Positions 23,501 through 28,418 of a DNA stretch of 39,000 bases are shown piece by piece. The notes under the pieces are model-generated. The model was given only the letters and a program-made list of their open reading frames with translations, had not been told where the DNA came from and made no database searches. Location of the stretch: assembly GCA_902562205.1 (NCBI GenBank), contig CACESO010000009.1, positions 1 through 39,000 on the forward strand. The letters are read 5' to 3'. Position numbers and translations under genes: made by a program. This DNA is from an uncultured Pelagibacteraceae bacterium. Its GTDB lineage: Bacteria; Pseudomonadota; Alphaproteobacteria; Pelagibacterales; Pelagibacteraceae. The stretch's first letter is position 1. Each line of letters starts with the position of its first letter.

Positions 23501-23529
23501 TTGACAGTGTTATAATATAACACTATGAT
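23501..23529 (+). promoter_or_regulatory. Sigma-70 promoter with Zur-type operator in its spacer
   Basis: TTGACA (23501-23506) and TATGAT (23524-23529) are separated by exactly 17 bases, the best promoter in the window. The spacer 23507-23523 is itself the near-perfect palindrome GTGTTATAATATAACAC: two 8-base arms around one central base. Its core TGTTAT-N3-ATAACA matches the classic gammaproteobacterial Zur consensus GTTATANTATAAC and recurs at znuA/znuC (25035-25067). A dimer bound here would cover both promoter elements. A leader of roughly 40 bases leads to AAGGAG, 6 bases before the ATG at 23575. Identification of Zur as the binder is an inference from the match and the nearby zur gene. 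Confidence 0.8.
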
Positions 23530-23574
23530 ATTAATTTAATCAATAACTAACAAATAAATCTTAAGGAGATATTT

Positions 23575-23952
23575 ATGAAAGTTGCGTATGTTTTTAGAAA
23601 CAATATGGCAAGTACTTATCAATTAAGTACGATGATACTGCCTCAATTAGAAGATAACAAACACCTTGTGAATGTTTTGGGAATGTTTTTCTTTGATGAC
23701 AATCTTTTTTGCCTTCAAAAAGGAAACCCAATCGGTGAAAGATTATCAAAAATTGCTAAAGAAAAAGGTATGCTCTTAATGGTCTGTGACCAGTGTGCTG
23801 TTAGAAGAGGTTTAGCAGATGGTACATTTGAACAATGTGGTAGTGGAGAAGTTAAAGCAAAAGGATTAGTTGATGGAGTAGTAGCAGGATGTTTTCCTCA
23901 ATTATATACTGCTCTTGGATCAAATCCTCCAGACCAAGTTATTACTCTTTAG
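23575..23952 (+). CDS. Cysteine-rich DsrE-like protein, probably Zur-regulated
   Basis: A 125-residue soluble protein resembling small members of the DsrE/sulfur-relay fold (I recall such proteins annotated SaoD, without certainty). Alternating hydrophobic strands (KVAYVF, VNVLGMFFF, MLLMVC) and helices fit that fold. It has five cysteines at about 46, 71, 74, 88 and 106, in FCL, CDQC-AVRRGLADGTFEQC and AGCFPQLY. These could carry persulfides or bind a metal. It has a strong consensus promoter with a palindromic operator and the near-perfect ribosome site TAAGGAG. It converges on znuA, leaving 12 bases. The regulation points to a job in zinc limitation; the reaction is unknown. No signal peptide is visible. 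Confidence 0.75.
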   Translation: MKVAYVFRNNMASTYQLSTMILPQLEDNKHLVNVLGMFFFDDNLFCLQKGNPIGERLSKIAKEKGMLLMVCDQCAVRRGLADGTFEQCGSGEVKAKGLVDGVVAGCFPQLYTALGSNPPDQVITL

Positions 23953-23964
23953 GAAACTTTAAAT

Positions 23965-24993
23965 TTAACAACCTTTGAATGATTTAGACATATTCTTTAT
24001 CAAATCAAAGTATAAGTTTTTACCTGGAGTTAAAGTAGCGCCTAATGGATCAAGTACACCGGTACTTATATTCATATCTTTTGCTACTGCATTAATGATG
24101 TCTGGATTAAATTGAGGTTCAGAGAATACACATGTAACTTTATCATGTTCAATTATTTCTCTAATTTCTTTTAATTGTTCTGCTCCAGGTAAAACATCTG
24201 TATTTACTGTAAATGCGCCTAGAACGTTTACTTTAAATCTTTTCTCAAAATACTGGTAAGCATCATGAAAAACTATAGATTTAAAATCTTTATTCAATTC
24301 TGATTTAACTTGTTTTACTAGCTTATCTAAATCCTTATTAGCCTTTTTTAAATTATCTTTATAAACAGAAGCATTCTTCTGATCATTCTCTATTAAATGT
24401 TTAGCCATTTCCTTTAAAATCACTTTAGCATTAAGAGGATCTAGCCAAATATGTGGGTCAAACTCTCCGTGAGCATGGCCCTCATGACCGTGTTCGTCAT
24501 GTCCATCTTTTTTGTGATCATCATCATGGCCGTGTTCATCTTTATGTTCGTCATCATGACCATCTTCTTTTTTGGCATGATCATCATGGTCATCTTCTTT
24601 GTGGCCGTGGTCGTCATGACCTTCAAATACATTTCTTTCTCTAAACTTTAATTTTTTCAATCCTCTGATATCTAATAGTTCAATTTTTTCAGCATTTTTT
24701 GCTATTGAACCTAATGGCTTTACTAAAAAATTTTCTATGTCTTCACCAACCCAAAATACAATATCTGCTTCTTGTAACATTTTTGCATGGGATGGTTTTA
24801 ATGAAAATCCATGAGGAGAAGCATAGCCATCGACGATTAATTTTGGTTTGCGTACCCCATCCATTAAATAAGAAGCTAATGAATGTATGGGTTTAATTGA
24901 TGCTACAACTTTTATTTCAGCGTTTACTGAGGAAAAGAAAGTAAAAAAAGAAAGTATGAATAGTATAATTGGTAATTTTTTTAGATTTGTCAT
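23965..24993 (-). CDS. znuA: Zinc ABC transporter substrate-binding protein ZnuA
   Basis: ZnuA captures zinc in the periplasm and delivers it to ZnuB. The 342-residue protein has a signal peptide (about residues 1-25, ending SSVNA). The zinc-binding His residues lie in KPIHSLASYLM, FDPHIWLDP and FHDAYQYF. Between the first two lies a charged His/Asp loop of about 60 residues (roughly 120-178), a known ZnuA feature thought to gather zinc. The Cys in CVFSEPQF and the final residue Cys (SFKGC) match the disulfide pair of E. coli ZnuA. It is divergent from znuC across 96 bases with two Zur-like boxes. The His-rich repeats create long open frames in the other strand that are not genes. Confidence 0.95.
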   Translation of the reverse strand: MTNLKKLPIILFILSFFTFFSSVNAEIKVVASIKPIHSLASYLMDGVRKPKLIVDGYASPHGFSLKPSHAKMLQEADIVFWVGEDIENFLVKPLGSIAKNAEKIELLDIRGLKKLKFRERNVFEGHDDHGHKEDDHDDHAKKEDGHDDEHKDEHGHDDDHKKDGHDEHGHEGHAHGEFDPHIWLDPLNAKVILKEMAKHLIENDQKNASVYKDNLKKANKDLDKLVKQVKSELNKDFKSIVFHDAYQYFEKRFKVNVLGAFTVNTDVLPGAEQLKEIREIIEHDKVTCVFSEPQFNPDIINAVAKDMNISTGVLDPLGATLTPGKNLYFDLIKNMSKSFKGC

Positions 24994-25034: not shown

Positions 25035-25049
25035 TGTTATAAAATAACA
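25035..25049. promoter_or_regulatory. Zur-type operator, box 1 of the znuA/znuC intergenic region
   Basis: TGTTAT-AAA-ATAACA is a perfect inverted repeat with 6-base arms, the same arms as the operator at 23507-23523. It lies near the expected znuA transcription start on the minus strand and upstream of znuC on the plus strand, so one bound dimer could repress both. No clear -35/-10 pair for znuC could be picked out with confidence. Confidence 0.75.
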
Positions 25050-25076
25050 TTATGTAATAAAGTAACATAAAGTCAA
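25049..25076 (-). promoter_or_regulatory. znuA promoter containing a second Zur-type box
   Basis: On the minus strand TTGACT (25076-25071) and CATAAT (25054-25049) are 16 bases apart, a good sigma-70 promoter for znuA. The spacer holds TGTAAT-AAA-GTAACA (25053-25067), the box-1 pattern with two mismatches, exactly 18 bases from box 1. The layout mirrors the DsrE-like gene promoter, where the operator also fills the spacer. Confidence 0.65.
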
Positions 25077-25089
25077 TAGGGAAATTTAA

Positions 25090-25839
25090 GTGAGCTTAGA
25101 TAAAAACACACTAGTAAGATTAAAAGATGCGGGAATAAAACAAGACGAAAAATGGCTTGTTCAAGGTGTCTCTTTAGAAGTAAACAGAGGAAAAATTATA
25201 ACTTTAATTGGTCCTAATGGTTCTGGTAAGAGTACGACAGCTAAAATAGCTCTTGGTATTTATAAAAATTACGAAGGCACGGTAGAAAAGTTTACTAATA
25301 AAATTGGATATGTTCCTCAAAAGATTTCTATTGATTGGACTTTACCATTAAGAGTTGCAGATTTTATGGTCTTAACTGAAAACCTTAGCGCTGATGAAAT
25401 TGAAGAAGCACTATCATTGACGGGAGTAAATCACCTTGTAAATAAAAATTTAGGCAACTTATCTGGTGGCGAATTTCAACGAGTTTTACTTGCAAGAGCA
25501 ATTTCCAAAAAACCGGATTTATTAGTTCTTGATGAACCTGTCCAAGGTGTGGATTTTACTGGAGAAATAGCTTTATATGAGCTTATCAAAAAAATATCTG
25601 AAAAATTAAATTGTGGTATCTTACTTATATCACACGATTTACATATGGTTATGAGTGCTACGGACCATGTTGTTTGTTTAAATGGTCATGTTTGTTGTTC
25701 TGGTTCTCCAATAGATGTTGCAAAAGATAAAGAGTATAAAGCTTTGTTTGGTGACCAAGCGTCGCAAACACTCTCAATTTACGAACATAAGCACGATCAT
25801 GAACACACAGATGATGGAAAGATAAAACAAAAAAATTAA
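25090..25839 (+). CDS. znuC: Zinc ABC transporter ATP-binding protein ZnuC
   Basis: ZnuC supplies ATP energy for zinc uptake with ZnuB and ZnuA. The 249-residue protein has Walker A GPNGSGKST, the ABC signature LSGGEFQR, Walker B LLVLDEP and the switch His in SHDLHMV. IDWTLPLRVADFMVL is the Q-loop side region typical of manganese/zinc-type ATPases. The C-terminus ends in a His-rich tail, HKHDHEH, that could sense or bind zinc. The start is GTG at 25090, preceded by only a weak ribosome site (AGGGAAA). It lies 1 base ahead of znuB. It is divergent from znuA with Zur-like boxes between them, so it is probably induced when zinc is scarce. Confidence 0.95.
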   Translation: MSLDKNTLVRLKDAGIKQDEKWLVQGVSLEVNRGKIITLIGPNGSGKSTTAKIALGIYKNYEGTVEKFTNKIGYVPQKISIDWTLPLRVADFMVLTENLSADEIEEALSLTGVNHLVNKNLGNLSGGEFQRVLLARAISKKPDLLVLDEPVQGVDFTGEIALYELIKKISEKLNCGILLISHDLHMVMSATDHVVCLNGHVCCSGSPIDVAKDKEYKALFGDQASQTLSIYEHKHDHEHTDDGKIKQKN

Positions 25840-25840
25840 T

Positions 25841-26644
25841 ATGTTTGATGATTTTTTCATAAGAGCTTTAGTTGCAGGAATAGGAGTTGCCTTTATTACT
25901 GGACCGCTTGGTTGTTTTGTTGTTTGGAGAAGATTATCTTATTTTGGAGATACACTAGCTCATTCTGCTTTACTTGGCGTAACGATTGCCCTTTCCTTAG
26001 AATTTAATATAGCTTTATCAGTTTTTATAACAGCATCAGTTATTGCTTTATTCTTAATACAACTTCAGAAAAAGACTAATTTACCTGGAGACGCTCTCTT
26101 AGGACTTTTGGCTCATTCATCTTTAGGAATTGGATTGGTGGCAATTGGTTTTTTATCTTTTATAAGGTTTGATGTTATGGGCTTATTGTTTGGAGATATT
26201 CTAGCTGTAACAACTAATGACCTTTTAATTATTTGGATAGGAGGAGTATTAATTCTATTAACTTTAAGATTTATTTGGAAACCATTGTTTGCTTCAACTG
26301 TAAATTATGAATTAGCTGAAGCAGAAGGTCTAAAACCAGATATTGCTAAAGCAATATTTACTTTATTGATGGCTGCTGTAATTGCATTATCAATCAAAAT
26401 GATAGGTTTGTTATTAATAACTGGAATGTTAATTATACCTGCTGCTTTTGCACGAAACCTTTCAGATACTCCAAAAAAAATGGTTATTTTTTCAATTATA
26501 GGGGGTTTATTATCGGTATTTTTAGGTTTATTTTCGTCTTTAAAATTTAATACTCCCTCTGGTCCTTCAATTATAACAGCTGCTTTAATATTGTTTGTAA
26601 TTTCATTATTCAAAATTAAACAAACCATAAAATTGAAAAATTGA
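25841..26644 (+). CDS. znuB: Zinc ABC transporter permease ZnuB
   Basis: ZnuB forms the membrane channel of the zinc importer. The 267-residue protein is hydrophobic throughout with about eight membrane segments. Family motifs are CFVVWRRLSYFGDTLAHSALLG near the N-terminus, with the conserved D-x-x-x-H, ALLGLLAHSSLGIGLV in the middle, and GLLLITGMLIIPAAFARNLS near the coupling region. It begins 1 base after the znuC stop and ends 24 bases before zur. The three genes look like a single znuC-znuB-zur transcript, which would give the regulator feedback control over its own amount. Confidence 0.95.
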   Translation: MFDDFFIRALVAGIGVAFITGPLGCFVVWRRLSYFGDTLAHSALLGVTIALSLEFNIALSVFITASVIALFLIQLQKKTNLPGDALLGLLAHSSLGIGLVAIGFLSFIRFDVMGLLFGDILAVTTNDLLIIWIGGVLILLTLRFIWKPLFASTVNYELAEAEGLKPDIAKAIFTLLMAAVIALSIKMIGLLLITGMLIIPAAFARNLSDTPKKMVIFSIIGGLLSVFLGLFSSLKFNTPSGPSIITAALILFVISLFKIKQTIKLKN

Positions 26645-26668: not shown

Positions 26669-27052
26669 ATGCAAACACTTACTAGAAACCAGCAAATAAT
26701 TTTCGACATTATCAACAAGTCATCAGAACCTTTAAAGGCTTACACAATTCTATCTAATGTACAGAAAAAAGGTATCAAGGCTCCTCCACAAGTTTATAGA
26801 GCTTTAGATAAATTGATAGAGATGGGAAAAATACATAAGATTGAGAGTAAAAATGCTTTTGTTGCATGTCAAAATTCAAGCTGCAATGTTTCTAAAGCTA
26901 CAGCATTTTCAATCTGCGAAAGCTGTGAAGAAGTAACAGAAATAAGTAATTCAAAGATTTCTAAGTATTTATCAAATTTTGCAGAAAAAGCTGGCATGGA
27001 GTACAAAAAATATAATCTTGAATTTTTTGGTCTCTGCAAAAAGTGTAAATAA
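26669..27052 (+). CDS. zur: Fur-family regulator, probable zinc-responsive Zur
   Basis: A 127-residue Fur-family repressor, assigned as Zur because it follows znuCB. The N-terminal winged helix includes PLKAYTILSNV and APPQVYRALDKLIEMGKIHKIES; the latter is the DNA-recognition region. The structural zinc pairs CESC and CKKC are present. Of the E. coli Zur sensing ligands, the His in KIHKIES and the Cys in FVAC are kept. The usual His-rich stretch after that Cys is replaced by QNSSCNVSK, so a second Cys may stand in for the sensing His. Its likely operators are the TGTTAT-N3-ATAACA palindromes at 23507-23523 and 25035-25067. A half site, ATAACA, at 26655-26660 precedes zur itself. Confidence 0.88.
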   Translation: MQTLTRNQQIIFDIINKSSEPLKAYTILSNVQKKGIKAPPQVYRALDKLIEMGKIHKIESKNAFVACQNSSCNVSKATAFSICESCEEVTEISNSKISKYLSNFAEKAGMEYKKYNLEFFGLCKKCK

Positions 27053-27110: not shown

Positions 27111-27332
27111 ATGTTTATAAAAAAATATCTAAAATGGATCAGCACTTTTTTAGTTTTAGTAGGAATACTTCTTACAAATTTAAATATATATCCATTAAAT
27201 ATATATTTTCATGGTTTGGGTGTTGTGGGCTGGACGGTGGCAGGATTTATAAGTAAGGATAAAGCAATCTTAACTAACTTTGGACTGCAAATACCACTAT
27301 TCGTGATTGGTATTTACAAAATAATATTTTAA
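27111..27332 (+). CDS. Small integral membrane protein at head of arsenic-type cluster
   Basis: A 73-residue hydrophobic protein I do not recognise. It has a basic N-terminus (MFIKKYLKW), then hydrophobic segments at about residues 9-27, 33-46 and 52-72, so two or three membrane spans. A ribosome site, AAAGGAAA, lies 6-8 bases ahead of the ATG. Its stop shares one base with the arsenate reductase start (TAATG), so the two are probably co-expressed. The 58 bases ahead of it hold AT-rich sequence with ATAAC half sites but no convincing promoter. Small SAR11 proteins of this size and pattern exist, as I recall, without known function. Confidence 0.65.
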   Translation: MFIKKYLKWISTFLVLVGILLTNLNIYPLNIYFHGLGVVGWTVAGFISKDKAILTNFGLQIPLFVIGIYKIIF

Positions 27333-27769
27333 TGAAAAACAAAAATATTTTATTTGTTTGTACAGGTAATTCAGCAAGAAGTATTATTGCGGAATCTATT
27401 ATAAAAAACAAATACCATAATCGTTTTAATGCATTTAGTGCTGGTAGTAATCCCACTGGTAAAGTAAATGAAGATGTAAAAAATTATTTAATTTCAAAAA
27501 ATTTCAACTTGTTAAATTGTCGATCTAAAAATTTTGATGAGTTTACTAATAATAAAATCAAAATAGATTATGTAATTACAGTTTGTAATAATGCTAACAA
27601 TGAAATTTGCCCTGTATGGCCAAAAAAGGATGAAATAATTCATTGGGATATTGAGGATCCAGTAGTTGAATTAAAAAAAACAAATAATATCGACAATAAA
27701 AAGGAAATACTTGATTCAGTTTTTAATAAGATAGATAATAAAATACAAGAATTTGTAAATGAAAAATAG
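27332..27769 (+). CDS. arsC: Arsenate reductase, thioredoxin-coupled LMW-phosphatase type
   Basis: This enzyme family reduces arsenate to arsenite through a cysteine relay fed by thioredoxin. The 145-residue protein begins with the P-loop VCTGNSARS (C-x5-R), where the first Cys attacks arsenate. The relay cysteines follow in TVCNNANNEICPVWP, corresponding to Cys82 and Cys89 of Bacillus ArsC, and HWDIEDP matches the HW-x-x-x-DP motif. Their presence favours arsenate reductase over a tyrosine phosphatase. It shares one base with the small membrane gene and overlaps the aquaporin by 11 bases, which would provide the exit route for its product. No arsR is in the cluster. Confidence 0.88.
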   Translation: MKNKNILFVCTGNSARSIIAESIIKNKYHNRFNAFSAGSNPTGKVNEDVKNYLISKNFNLLNCRSKNFDEFTNNKIKIDYVITVCNNANNEICPVWPKKDEIIHWDIEDPVVELKKTNNIDNKKEILDSVFNKIDNKIQEFVNEK

Positions 27770-28418
27770 AAATCGATATTTTTTAGCGGAATTTATTGGC
27801 AGTAGTTTTTTAGTCATGATTATTGTTGGTTCTGGATTAATGGCTGAGAACTTGACTAATGATGTTGCAGTAATGCTTATAGCCAATACAATCGCCACAG
27901 GTGCAGGTTTGTTTGTTTTAATATCTGTTTTTGCAGATGTGTCCGGTGCCCATTTTAATCCATTTGTAAGTATTGCTATGGCAATTACTGGAAAATTAAA
28001 AAAACGTTTATTACCCTATTATATATTTGCACAGTTGTTTGGTTGTTTGTTAGGTGTTGGTTTGGCAAATTTCTTTTTTGAACATGAAATTTATGAATTA
28101 TCTACTAAGTCAAGAGATGGTATTTACATATTCACATCTGAAGTAATAGCAACATTAGGATTAATAATTATAATTTTTGGTTCCATGAAATCAGGTAAAA
28201 TTGCGGTAGCTGCTTGTGTTGGTCTTTATATTACTGCTGGTTATTGGTTTACGTCATCAACTTCTTTTGCAAATCCTGCGGTGACAATTGCAAGAACTTT
28301 TACTGAGTCCTTTACCGGTATAAATTATATGAATACCCCTTATTATATTTTAGCAGAACTTATAGGGATGTTAATTGCGGTATTTATTATTAAAAGTTTA
28401 TTTTCAAAGAAAAATTGA
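27759..28418 (+). CDS. aqpS: Aquaporin-family channel, AqpS-like
   Basis: A 219-residue MIP-family channel with six membrane segments. The first pore motif is AHFNPFVSIA (NPF in place of NPA) and the second is FANPAVTIARTFTESF. In ordinary aquaporins the second motif is NPAR, and its Arg narrows the pore. Here the residue after NPA is Val, as in Sinorhizobium AqpS, a channel from an ars operon that passes arsenic compounds. Together with the overlapping arsC gene this suggests that arsenite or methylated arsenicals leave through it. The 11-base overlap with arsC and 3-base overlap with the Nudix gene indicate one transcript. Water or another small neutral solute remains possible. Confidence 0.82.
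   Translation: MKNRNRYFLAEFIGSSFLVMIIVGSGLMAENLTNDVAVMLIANTIATGAGLFVLISVFADVSGAHFNPFVSIAMAITGKLKKRLLPYYIFAQLFGCLLGVGLANFFFEHEIYELSTKSRDGIYIFTSEVIATLGLIIIIFGSMKSGKIAVAACVGLYITAGYWFTSSTSFANPAVTIARTFTESFTGINYMNTPYYILAELIGMLIAVFIIKSLFSKKN

Follow-up and report, generated by a model that had tools for sequence, protein, structure and literature searches.

A DsrE-fold protein gene under a predicted Zur operator, a candidate zinc-starvation gene in SAR11 bacteria

The window, by which we mean the whole stretch of 39,000 nucleotides that was analysed, carries a small gene for a DsrE-fold protein beside the zinc uptake genes znuA, znuC and znuB and a zur-like repressor gene. The locus is composed as follows:

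23501..23506, + strand: -35 hexamer TTGACA, by direct reading
23507..23523, no strand: predicted Zur-type operator, the 17-bp palindrome GTGTTATAATATAACAC, forming the whole -35/-10 spacer
23508-23522: core TGTTATN3ATAACA of the DsrE-gene operator, by pattern match and upstream conservation in orthologues
23524..23529, + strand: -10 hexamer TATGAT, by direct reading
23563..23568, + strand: ribosome binding site AAGGAG, by direct reading
23575..23952, + strand: DsrE-fold protein of 125 amino acids, NF040913 (DsrE_rel_ELSE), 199 bits at a cut-off of 152, and by fold
23965..24993, - strand: znuA, zinc ABC transporter substrate-binding protein, NF007091 with 271.6 bits at a cut-off of 268, and Pfam ZnuA
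25035..25049, no strand: second predicted Zur-type operator, TGTTATAAAATAACA, in the divergent znuA-znuC promoter, by pattern match
25053..25067: weaker operator repeat TGTAATAAAGTAACA with 2 mismatches, a class of match whose count is not above chance
25090..25839, + strand: znuC, zinc ABC transporter ATPase, best NCBIfam match NF007090 with 274 bits at a cut-off of 306
25841..26644, + strand: znuB, zinc ABC transporter permease, best NCBIfam match NF007089 with 231 bits at a cut-off of 284
26669..27052, + strand: zur-like Fur-family repressor beside znuB, Pfam FUR above its cut-off

The DsrE gene reads from an ATG at 23575 to a stop codon that ends at 23952, and upstream of it lie an exodeoxyribonuclease III gene (NCBIfam) and an Fe-S_biosyn gene (Pfam). 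An earlier note on this DNA had described a consensus promoter, TTGACA-17-TATGAT, with a spacer that is entirely palindrome, a strong ribosome site, and the same core TGTTATN3ATAACA between znuA and znuC at a distance of 1.5 kb. Direct reading agrees with the promoter and shows that the palindrome GTGTTATAATATAACAC has one central base; the ribosome site is the AAGGAG at 23563-23568, and the core recurs at 25035-25049. The best NCBIfam match of the zur-like gene is Zur (NF008646), with 78 bits under the cut-off of 167. Downstream of this gene, at 27332-28418, a low-molecular-weight phosphatase-family gene is followed by an aquaporin-family gene (Pfam), perhaps an arsenic pair, the phosphatase of which we would liken to the arsenate-reductase type.

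The protein is assigned to NF040913, "SaoD/DsrE family protein", with 199.1 bits at a cut-off of 152 and a match that covers residues 1-125 of 125. The TusD equivalog model (TIGR03012) gave 12.7 bits at a cut-off of 89.25 and the SaoD model (NF040732) 121.9 bits at a cut-off of 169, and with scores below both cut-offs neither identity was retained. SaoD, which we take to belong to a selenocysteine-assisted organometal cluster, is a clear relative at 122 bits, yet the score lies below its cut-off, and the protein is thus not SaoD. As the gathering score of Pfam PF02635 (DsrE/DsrF-like) was just missed, with 22.2 against 22.7 bits, the protein is filed by NF040913 and by its fold. The AlphaFold2 model (pLDDT 93.7 over the 125 residues) adopts a predicted DsrE fold, and the top PDB matches of this model are YchN, DsrE, TusD and other DsrE-like chains with VIA Z between 11.0 and 11.4, among them DsrE of DsrEFH (2hy5_A; Z 11.3, rmsd 3.5, 112 aligned) and TusD of TusBCD (2d1p_A; Z 11.1, rmsd 3.7, 112 aligned). 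In Foldseek, DsrE 2hy5_A leads with an E value of 4e-6. Kinship to the zinc-ribbon family Tim15/zf-DNL was considered and rejected, the E values being 0.17 and 0.029, below the Pfam score, and the likeness was taken as a CxxC coincidence. A search for a phage origin gave no match in 50,697 phage records. The description of the NF040913 model names neither a function nor a link to zinc, and the zinc context is new here.

The earlier note had spoken of a five-Cys DsrE-like protein, and the window protein does contain five cysteines, only four of which are conserved in the family. In an alignment of 87 members, one of them interrupted by an in-frame stop codon, all 87 have C71, C74 and C106, 85 have C88, which only two haloarchaeal members lack, and 65 have C46. 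C71 and C74 form a CxxC pair. In the AlphaFold2 model C71 closes a strand, C106 stands after one, and each directly precedes a helix; both therefore probably face the usual active-site edge. In a weak alignment to 2hy5_A (E 0.5), C71 is opposite the DsrE cysteine that stands before the RRG motif and that we take to be the catalytic one. In contrast to DsrE and TusD, the window protein has C74, C88 and C106 as extra conserved cysteines, and its recurrent neighbours are zinc genes. As far as the sequences go, the four conserved cysteines are compatible with zinc binding.

The family is rare in the relatives of the window organism. It was found in 2 of 398 genomes sampled from its own phylum and in 6 of 385 sampled from its own class, the window genome included in both cases, and of the six in the class three are over the cut-off, two are cut by a contig end and one is a fragment; this rarity argues that the gene is not a standard proteobacterial zinc gene. 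NF040913-type members occur in records labelled as Thermus, planctomycetes, verrucomicrobia and alphaproteobacteria. Near-identical loci from single-cell and metagenome-assembled genomes, such as L058 and L061, are labelled partly as Rhodobacteraceae and partly as Acidimicrobiaceae, and some of the organism labels must therefore be wrong. Within the genus the gene is patchy, with 5 of 37 genomes carrying it (the window genome included), and it was found in 0 of 24 genomes of a second family of the order; many of these 37 and 24 genomes are incomplete.

All five genus genomes with the gene have the exact box upstream of it, in three different gene contexts. In two of them, L003 and L004, where the gene is on the minus strand, its start codon is 24-25 bp from the beginning of the nearest box. 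Further relatives were obtained from a scan of the genomes of 84,980 species with two short peptide patterns, by which the scan is biased towards close kin. It gave 330 relatives, and all counts out of 80 loci given here refer to the best 80 of these 330; they overstate independence because many of the loci come from near-identical single-cell genomes and because four (L011, L025, L035, L057), to judge from the lengths of the contigs and the positions on them, duplicate L002-L005. From this material a SAR11-type set of 38 loci was formed, comprising L011-L057 minus nine that were left out for another architecture or label (L027, L031, L032, L034, L037, L047, L050, L051, L052). The exact box lies at most 150 bp upstream in 36 of these 38 orthologues, the remaining two (L042, L054) have a box with one mismatch, and the loci with a box span at least four gene contexts. 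As control, 503 other ORFs of at least 100 amino acids in the SAR11-type loci were searched, excluding DsrE, znu and zur genes, and 12 of them have an exact box. All 12 are a FucU/RbsD-type gene (checked by Pfam in L005) that is divergent from the DsrE gene and uses the same box. That the box is retained merely through its proximity to znu was rejected, as it persists where the DsrE gene sits elsewhere, in aldehyde dehydrogenase/DUF779 and FucU/RbsD contexts. The latter context, seen in L038-L041, L043, L045, L046, L049, L053 and L055-L057, is of some interest in itself: by eye, the FucU/RbsD gene adjoins an apparent sugar kinase gene and sugar transport genes, and these genes may also answer to zinc.

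In the wider set the exact box was found upstream in 38 of the 80 loci (best 80 of 330) and the degenerate form TG[TC][TA]ATN3AT[TA][AG]CA in 54, and the reversed degenerate pattern in none of the 80. Among 836 other ORFs, with the reference zinc genes excluded, 16 have the degenerate box, and 14 of these 16 share the promoter of the DsrE gene. The earlier note had named a lack of conservation upstream of orthologues as what would refute its proposal, and with 36 of 38 SAR11-type loci and variants in 54 of 80 (best 80 of 330) the palindrome passes that trial. On a tree of 64 rows, many forks of which are unresolved because the alignment has 125 columns only, the box label changes 10 times compared with 21.7 times when the labels are shuffled; the box is clustered by kinship, but, judging from these sequences, not limited to one clade. 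One DsrE copy (L007 1498-1875, genome G301) has a single in-frame TAA and a near-consensus box with one mismatch upstream; it represents either a decaying copy or a sequencing error.

The identity of the box as an operator can be judged from its placement elsewhere in the genomes. In the window genome (1,027,610 bases in 26 contigs, 89% complete) the exact TGTTATN3ATAACA occurs at just 2 sites, at the DsrE gene and at znuA/znuC, with no third exact match within the 39,000-nt window, and the pattern read backwards has 0 matches in the 26 contigs. Matches with 2 mismatches number 5 in the window at a chance mean of 7.8; as this count is no higher than chance, only exact matches are informative. 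Across 37 genomes of the order, namely the window genome and 36 relatives, there are 40 exact sites in 28 genomes, compared with 2 sites for the reversed pattern. Judged by the adjoining ORFs, znuA/znuC promoters account for 21 of the 40; 7 separate zur from a ZrgA-like gene (two confirmed as ZrgA by Pfam, the rest judged by eye), 2 overlap each other beside a diverged zur, 2 have a COG0523 gene on one side and a DUF1636 gene on the other (one confirmed by Pfam), and 6 are upstream of the DsrE gene, in 4 genomes, two of them with paired sites. Thus 38 of the 40 are at znuA/znuC, zur, ZrgA, COG0523/DUF1636 or the DsrE gene, and the last 2, both in G004, fall within ORFs that resemble no reference zinc gene. 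No exact site occurs in nine of the 37 genomes, most of them incomplete, and the znu site of G008 has one mismatch. This genome-wide placement at zinc genes argues that TGTTATN3ATAACA is probably the Zur operator of these bacteria. Zur sites of Caulobacter crescentus such as TGTTATATCATAACA and GATGTTATATCATAACAAT match the box in the excerpted text of a study that combined a zur-mutant microarray with a motif search (PMC4176598).

The box is found again at DUF1636 genes that adjoin COG0523 or DsrE genes (L102, L104 464-1939, L058, L079). DUF1636, confirmed by Pfam in L102, L058 and L079, would be a second uncharacterised family linked to zinc.

In some genomes the operator of the DsrE gene departs from the exact form, and its variant is found at other genes there as well. 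The degenerate pattern was searched in 19 genomes, and, among the matches listed, the 19 sites made into loci and 8 selected ones were inspected. In genomes with TGCAATN3ATTGCA at the DsrE gene, the same variant is found upstream of a zur-like gene (L172, confirmed by Pfam FUR, and L175), a COG0523 gene (L183) and a DUF1826 gene (L178), and, in L184, at 217 bp from a Fur-like gene. In the TGTAATN3ATTACA group, the znuA/znuC promoter of G822 bears TGTAATAGTATAACA (L164/L181); L180 is also a znuA/znuC promoter, and SAR116 genomes have an exact site between zur and znuA (L185). Other sites (L160, L161, L163, L165, L168-L171, L174, L176, L177, L179) are at or within genes that do not resemble the references, or have none of them nearby, and the reversed control gave 0-4 sites per genome; for both reasons the degenerate pattern alone is no proof of a site. 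In one SAR116 genome (L182 148-1905, G845) a COG0523 gene and a GTP cyclohydrolase I gene flank an exact site, TGTTATAACATAACA, and are likely another zinc-regulated pair.

The gene neighbourhoods point to zinc as well. Within 4 kb, 27 of the best 80 of 330 loci have a reference zinc gene (ZnuA, ZnuB, Zur, COG0523, HisI or a Thermomicrobium Fur, SBP or permease, scoring at least 60 bits), and 65 of these 80 have a degenerate box, a zinc gene or both. A COG0523 gene follows DsrE after 3-7 bp in five loci (L032, where it is split in two ORFs, L034, L037, L047 and L051). Verrucomicrobial loci (L027, L050, L052) have the order DsrE-HisI-x-COG0523 with 179-201 bp before HisI, and two SAR11 loci read znuC-znuB-zur-DsrE (L044 and L048, the contig of the latter starting there). 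The order is zur-COG0523-WD40-x-DsrE-DUF1636-ATPase-permease-SBP in a SAR116 locus (L079), SBP-ATPase-permease-x-HisI-DsrE in a Pirellulaceae locus (L085), and ZnuB, ZnuC, Zur, ZnuA, then DsrE in L090. An alphaproteobacterial cluster (L006 265-3352, L141) combines a MerB-family gene, HisI, DsrE and COG0523 with a Zur-like ORF nearby. The identities of HisI, the DUF1636 of L079, WD40 and GTP cyclohydrolase were confirmed by Pfam. Of 13 scored COG0523 or GTP-binding neighbours, 8 reach 552-650 bits against ZigA: L006 (650), L065 (609) and L087 (600) pass its cut-off of 600, and those of L027, L037, L047, L077 and L088 have 552-598 bits. The remaining five (L079, L081, the second of L077 and two from Thermus) belong to another subtype or are incomplete. 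The excerpted text of PMC2770081 reports Zur regulons with HisI paralogues, and Zur-regulated COG0523 clusters with DUF1826.

Some further observations concern these neighbourhoods. DUF1826 genes occur in L034 (506-1138), L037 (7261-7905), L178 (828-1469) and L071 and, beside znuA, in L100, L103, L126 and L130; their settings are divergent from DsrE, under a TGCAATN3ATTGCA box, or beside znuA. The MerB-family (alkylmercury lyase) gene of the L006/L141 cluster recalls the SaoD name of the family. In L143 (9197-12406, G125) HisI, a DUF169-like gene (by eye) and COG0523 stand in a row, with only a DsrE-family fragment between the last two.

In 15 of the best 80 of 330 loci the search gave no degenerate box and no reference zinc gene within 4 kb. 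Five of these 15 have a related palindrome or a box with one mismatch: L042 and L054, as mentioned, L059 with a longer TGTTAT palindrome, and L060 and L063 with the palindrome TTGCAACTTAGTTGCAA. The other ten are negative or doubtful, with a box match at 3 mismatches and a DUF1826-like gene in L071, TGCAATTCGCTTGCA in L078, and nothing clear in the way of box or zinc gene at L069, L073, L075, L076, L080, L082, L083 and L086. In genome G516 (L139/L140), the second carrier in the phylum sample, neither a reference zinc gene nor a box was found in 14 kb, and the DsrE gene itself is absent from the called ORFs. A Zur-like gene was found in 27 of 32 other genomes that carry the DsrE gene, and the remaining 5 of the 32 gave no Zur-like match; in G010 (76% complete) neither Zur nor ZnuB was found.

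Family members also occur on plasmids, and 8 of 32 plasmid records with a member were examined for neighbours. A Thermomicrobium plasmid has a Fur-family repressor, SBP, ATPase, permease and DsrE in this order, and on three Thermus plasmids, two of which also carry a gene for a GTP-binding protein there, DsrE is close to a metal SBP; the binding proteins of Thermus and Thermomicrobium score best against a manganese model, under its cut-off. No zinc gene is in view beside the DsrE gene of T. thermophilus HB8 and HB5018, which adjoins an Argonaute gene in both. In Thermus thermophilus (L092 4766-7402, L145) the DsrE gene is found beside a divergent Argonaute gene, with an intervening transposase in one strain. 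On two haloarchaeal plasmids (L094, L095, 1100-9200) the DsrE gene lies among TusA, rhodanese and YeeE/YedE genes, and one of the two plasmids has MoaD/ThiS and MoeB nearby as well. An unsystematic look at the bacterial neighbourhoods read gave no recurrent sulfur-transfer partner.

The gene thus has a conserved Zur-type operator in its promoter, if not in every orthologue, and a zur-like gene in its genome. Regulation by Zur is very likely on the strength of operator identity, conservation and genome-wide placement, and we are rather confident that the best overall explanation is a zinc-starvation gene under Zur. This had been the central proposal of the earlier note, and box conservation, zinc-gene neighbours and the operator variants shared with zur and COG0523 genes speak for it. 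When zinc is sufficient, zinc-loaded Zur would sit on the palindrome between -35 and -10 and block RNA polymerase. When zinc falls, Zur would be released, and the DsrE gene would be transcribed from its strong promoter together with the znu genes. The product would be a small DsrE-fold protein, probably cytoplasmic, with the CxxC pair C71/C74 plus C88 and C106. Bound as a thiolate, zinc might be held by it or passed on, alongside ZnuABC and, in genomes that have one, a ZigA-type GTPase. Zinc-thiolate handling is the most likely chemistry in our view, if still a guess that falls somewhat short of an even chance.

Two other readings concern the palindrome itself. Palindromes come easily in AT-rich intergenic DNA, and the window has no more matches with two mismatches than chance would give, so that one might see in the box a chance feature, or a promoter relic near znu, without meaning for the DsrE gene. 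We hardly give this any credence and have discarded it, since the reversed pattern was found in 0 of 80 loci and the box in 54 (best 80 of 330), and since the box stays with the gene far from znu. Fur-family sites resemble one another and the Zur-like gene of the window is under the Zur equivalog cut-off, and the palindrome might therefore be bound by a different Fur-family regulator or another dimeric repressor and answer to a signal that is not zinc. We consider this improbable, because znuA/znuC promoters contain 21 of the 40 exact sites and zur or zur-ZrgA regions 9 more, because zur-like and COG0523 genes share operator variants with the DsrE gene, and because ZnuA is above its cut-off.

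The weightier question is the chemistry of the product. The earlier note had offered persulfide handling, zinc salvage or the replacement of a zinc-dependent sulfur step; these are guesses, and the data narrow them no further than to a DsrE fold with four conserved cysteines. The gene could be under Zur and the product be a persulfide carrier or reductase like TusD and DsrE and not a zinc binder, either caring for the thiols of emptied zinc sites or feeding a zinc-free sulfur step. The presence of DsrE and TusD among the top structural relatives of the model is consistent with this, as are the position of C71 opposite the DsrE cysteine in the weak 2hy5_A alignment (E 0.5) and the two haloarchaeal members among TusA and rhodanese genes, one near MoaD/ThiS. 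A DsrE-like selenoprotein with a UxxC motif in the table of a review, as far as its excerpted text goes, fits a reactive nucleophile (PMC9312934); the same excerpts list DsrE and COG0523 as separate selenoprotein families. Against it, the recurrent partners in the bacterial neighbourhoods read are zinc genes, and C88, present in all 85 non-haloarchaeal sequences and absent in the two haloarchaeal ones, fits an added metal ligand, two sequences being few. We regard a persulfide role as possible, if doubtful. The sulfur setting of the two haloarchaeal members, together with their lack of C88, suggests sulfur chemistry as the older function, two sequences being thin evidence.

Returning to the zinc-thiolate reading, one may tentatively picture NF040913 as a hitherto unrecognised, cross-phylum class of zinc-starvation proteins, a picture that could well prove wrong. 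A DsrE/TusD fold would have been made into a zinc-thiolate chaperone or salvage factor working with a ZigA-type GTPase, once C74, C88 and C106 had joined the original persulfide cysteine, and in SAR11 the gene would be patchily inherited, travelling with its own Zur operator.

Known members of Zur regulons such as COG0523/ZigA, hisI paralogues, DUF1636 and zrgA have the same operator or neighbourhoods as the DsrE gene, and to our knowledge no DsrE-fold protein is among them. The open-licence literature searched gave neither a zinc role for this family nor a DsrE protein in a Zur regulon, in line with the earlier note, which knew of no described zinc role for such a protein. The pelagic surface ocean holds extremely little zinc, and a survey of trace metals, in its excerpted text, names high-affinity zinc uptake as the sole metal-uptake trait kept by streamlined SAR11 and places znuA beside a Fur-family gene in half of the SAR11 genomes; the survey does not use the word "regulon" (PMC4771312). 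A second conserved gene under the same switch would serve as a zinc-stress marker, directly testable, for marine bacteria that are very abundant, and NF040913, a family with a name and no function, would gain a concrete role to test. It also raises the question of whether a sulfur-transfer fold was turned to metal handling. This small cysteine-rich DsrE-fold protein, so far no more than a family name, is probably an unrecognised part of microbial survival under zinc starvation, in SAR11 and in several other phyla.
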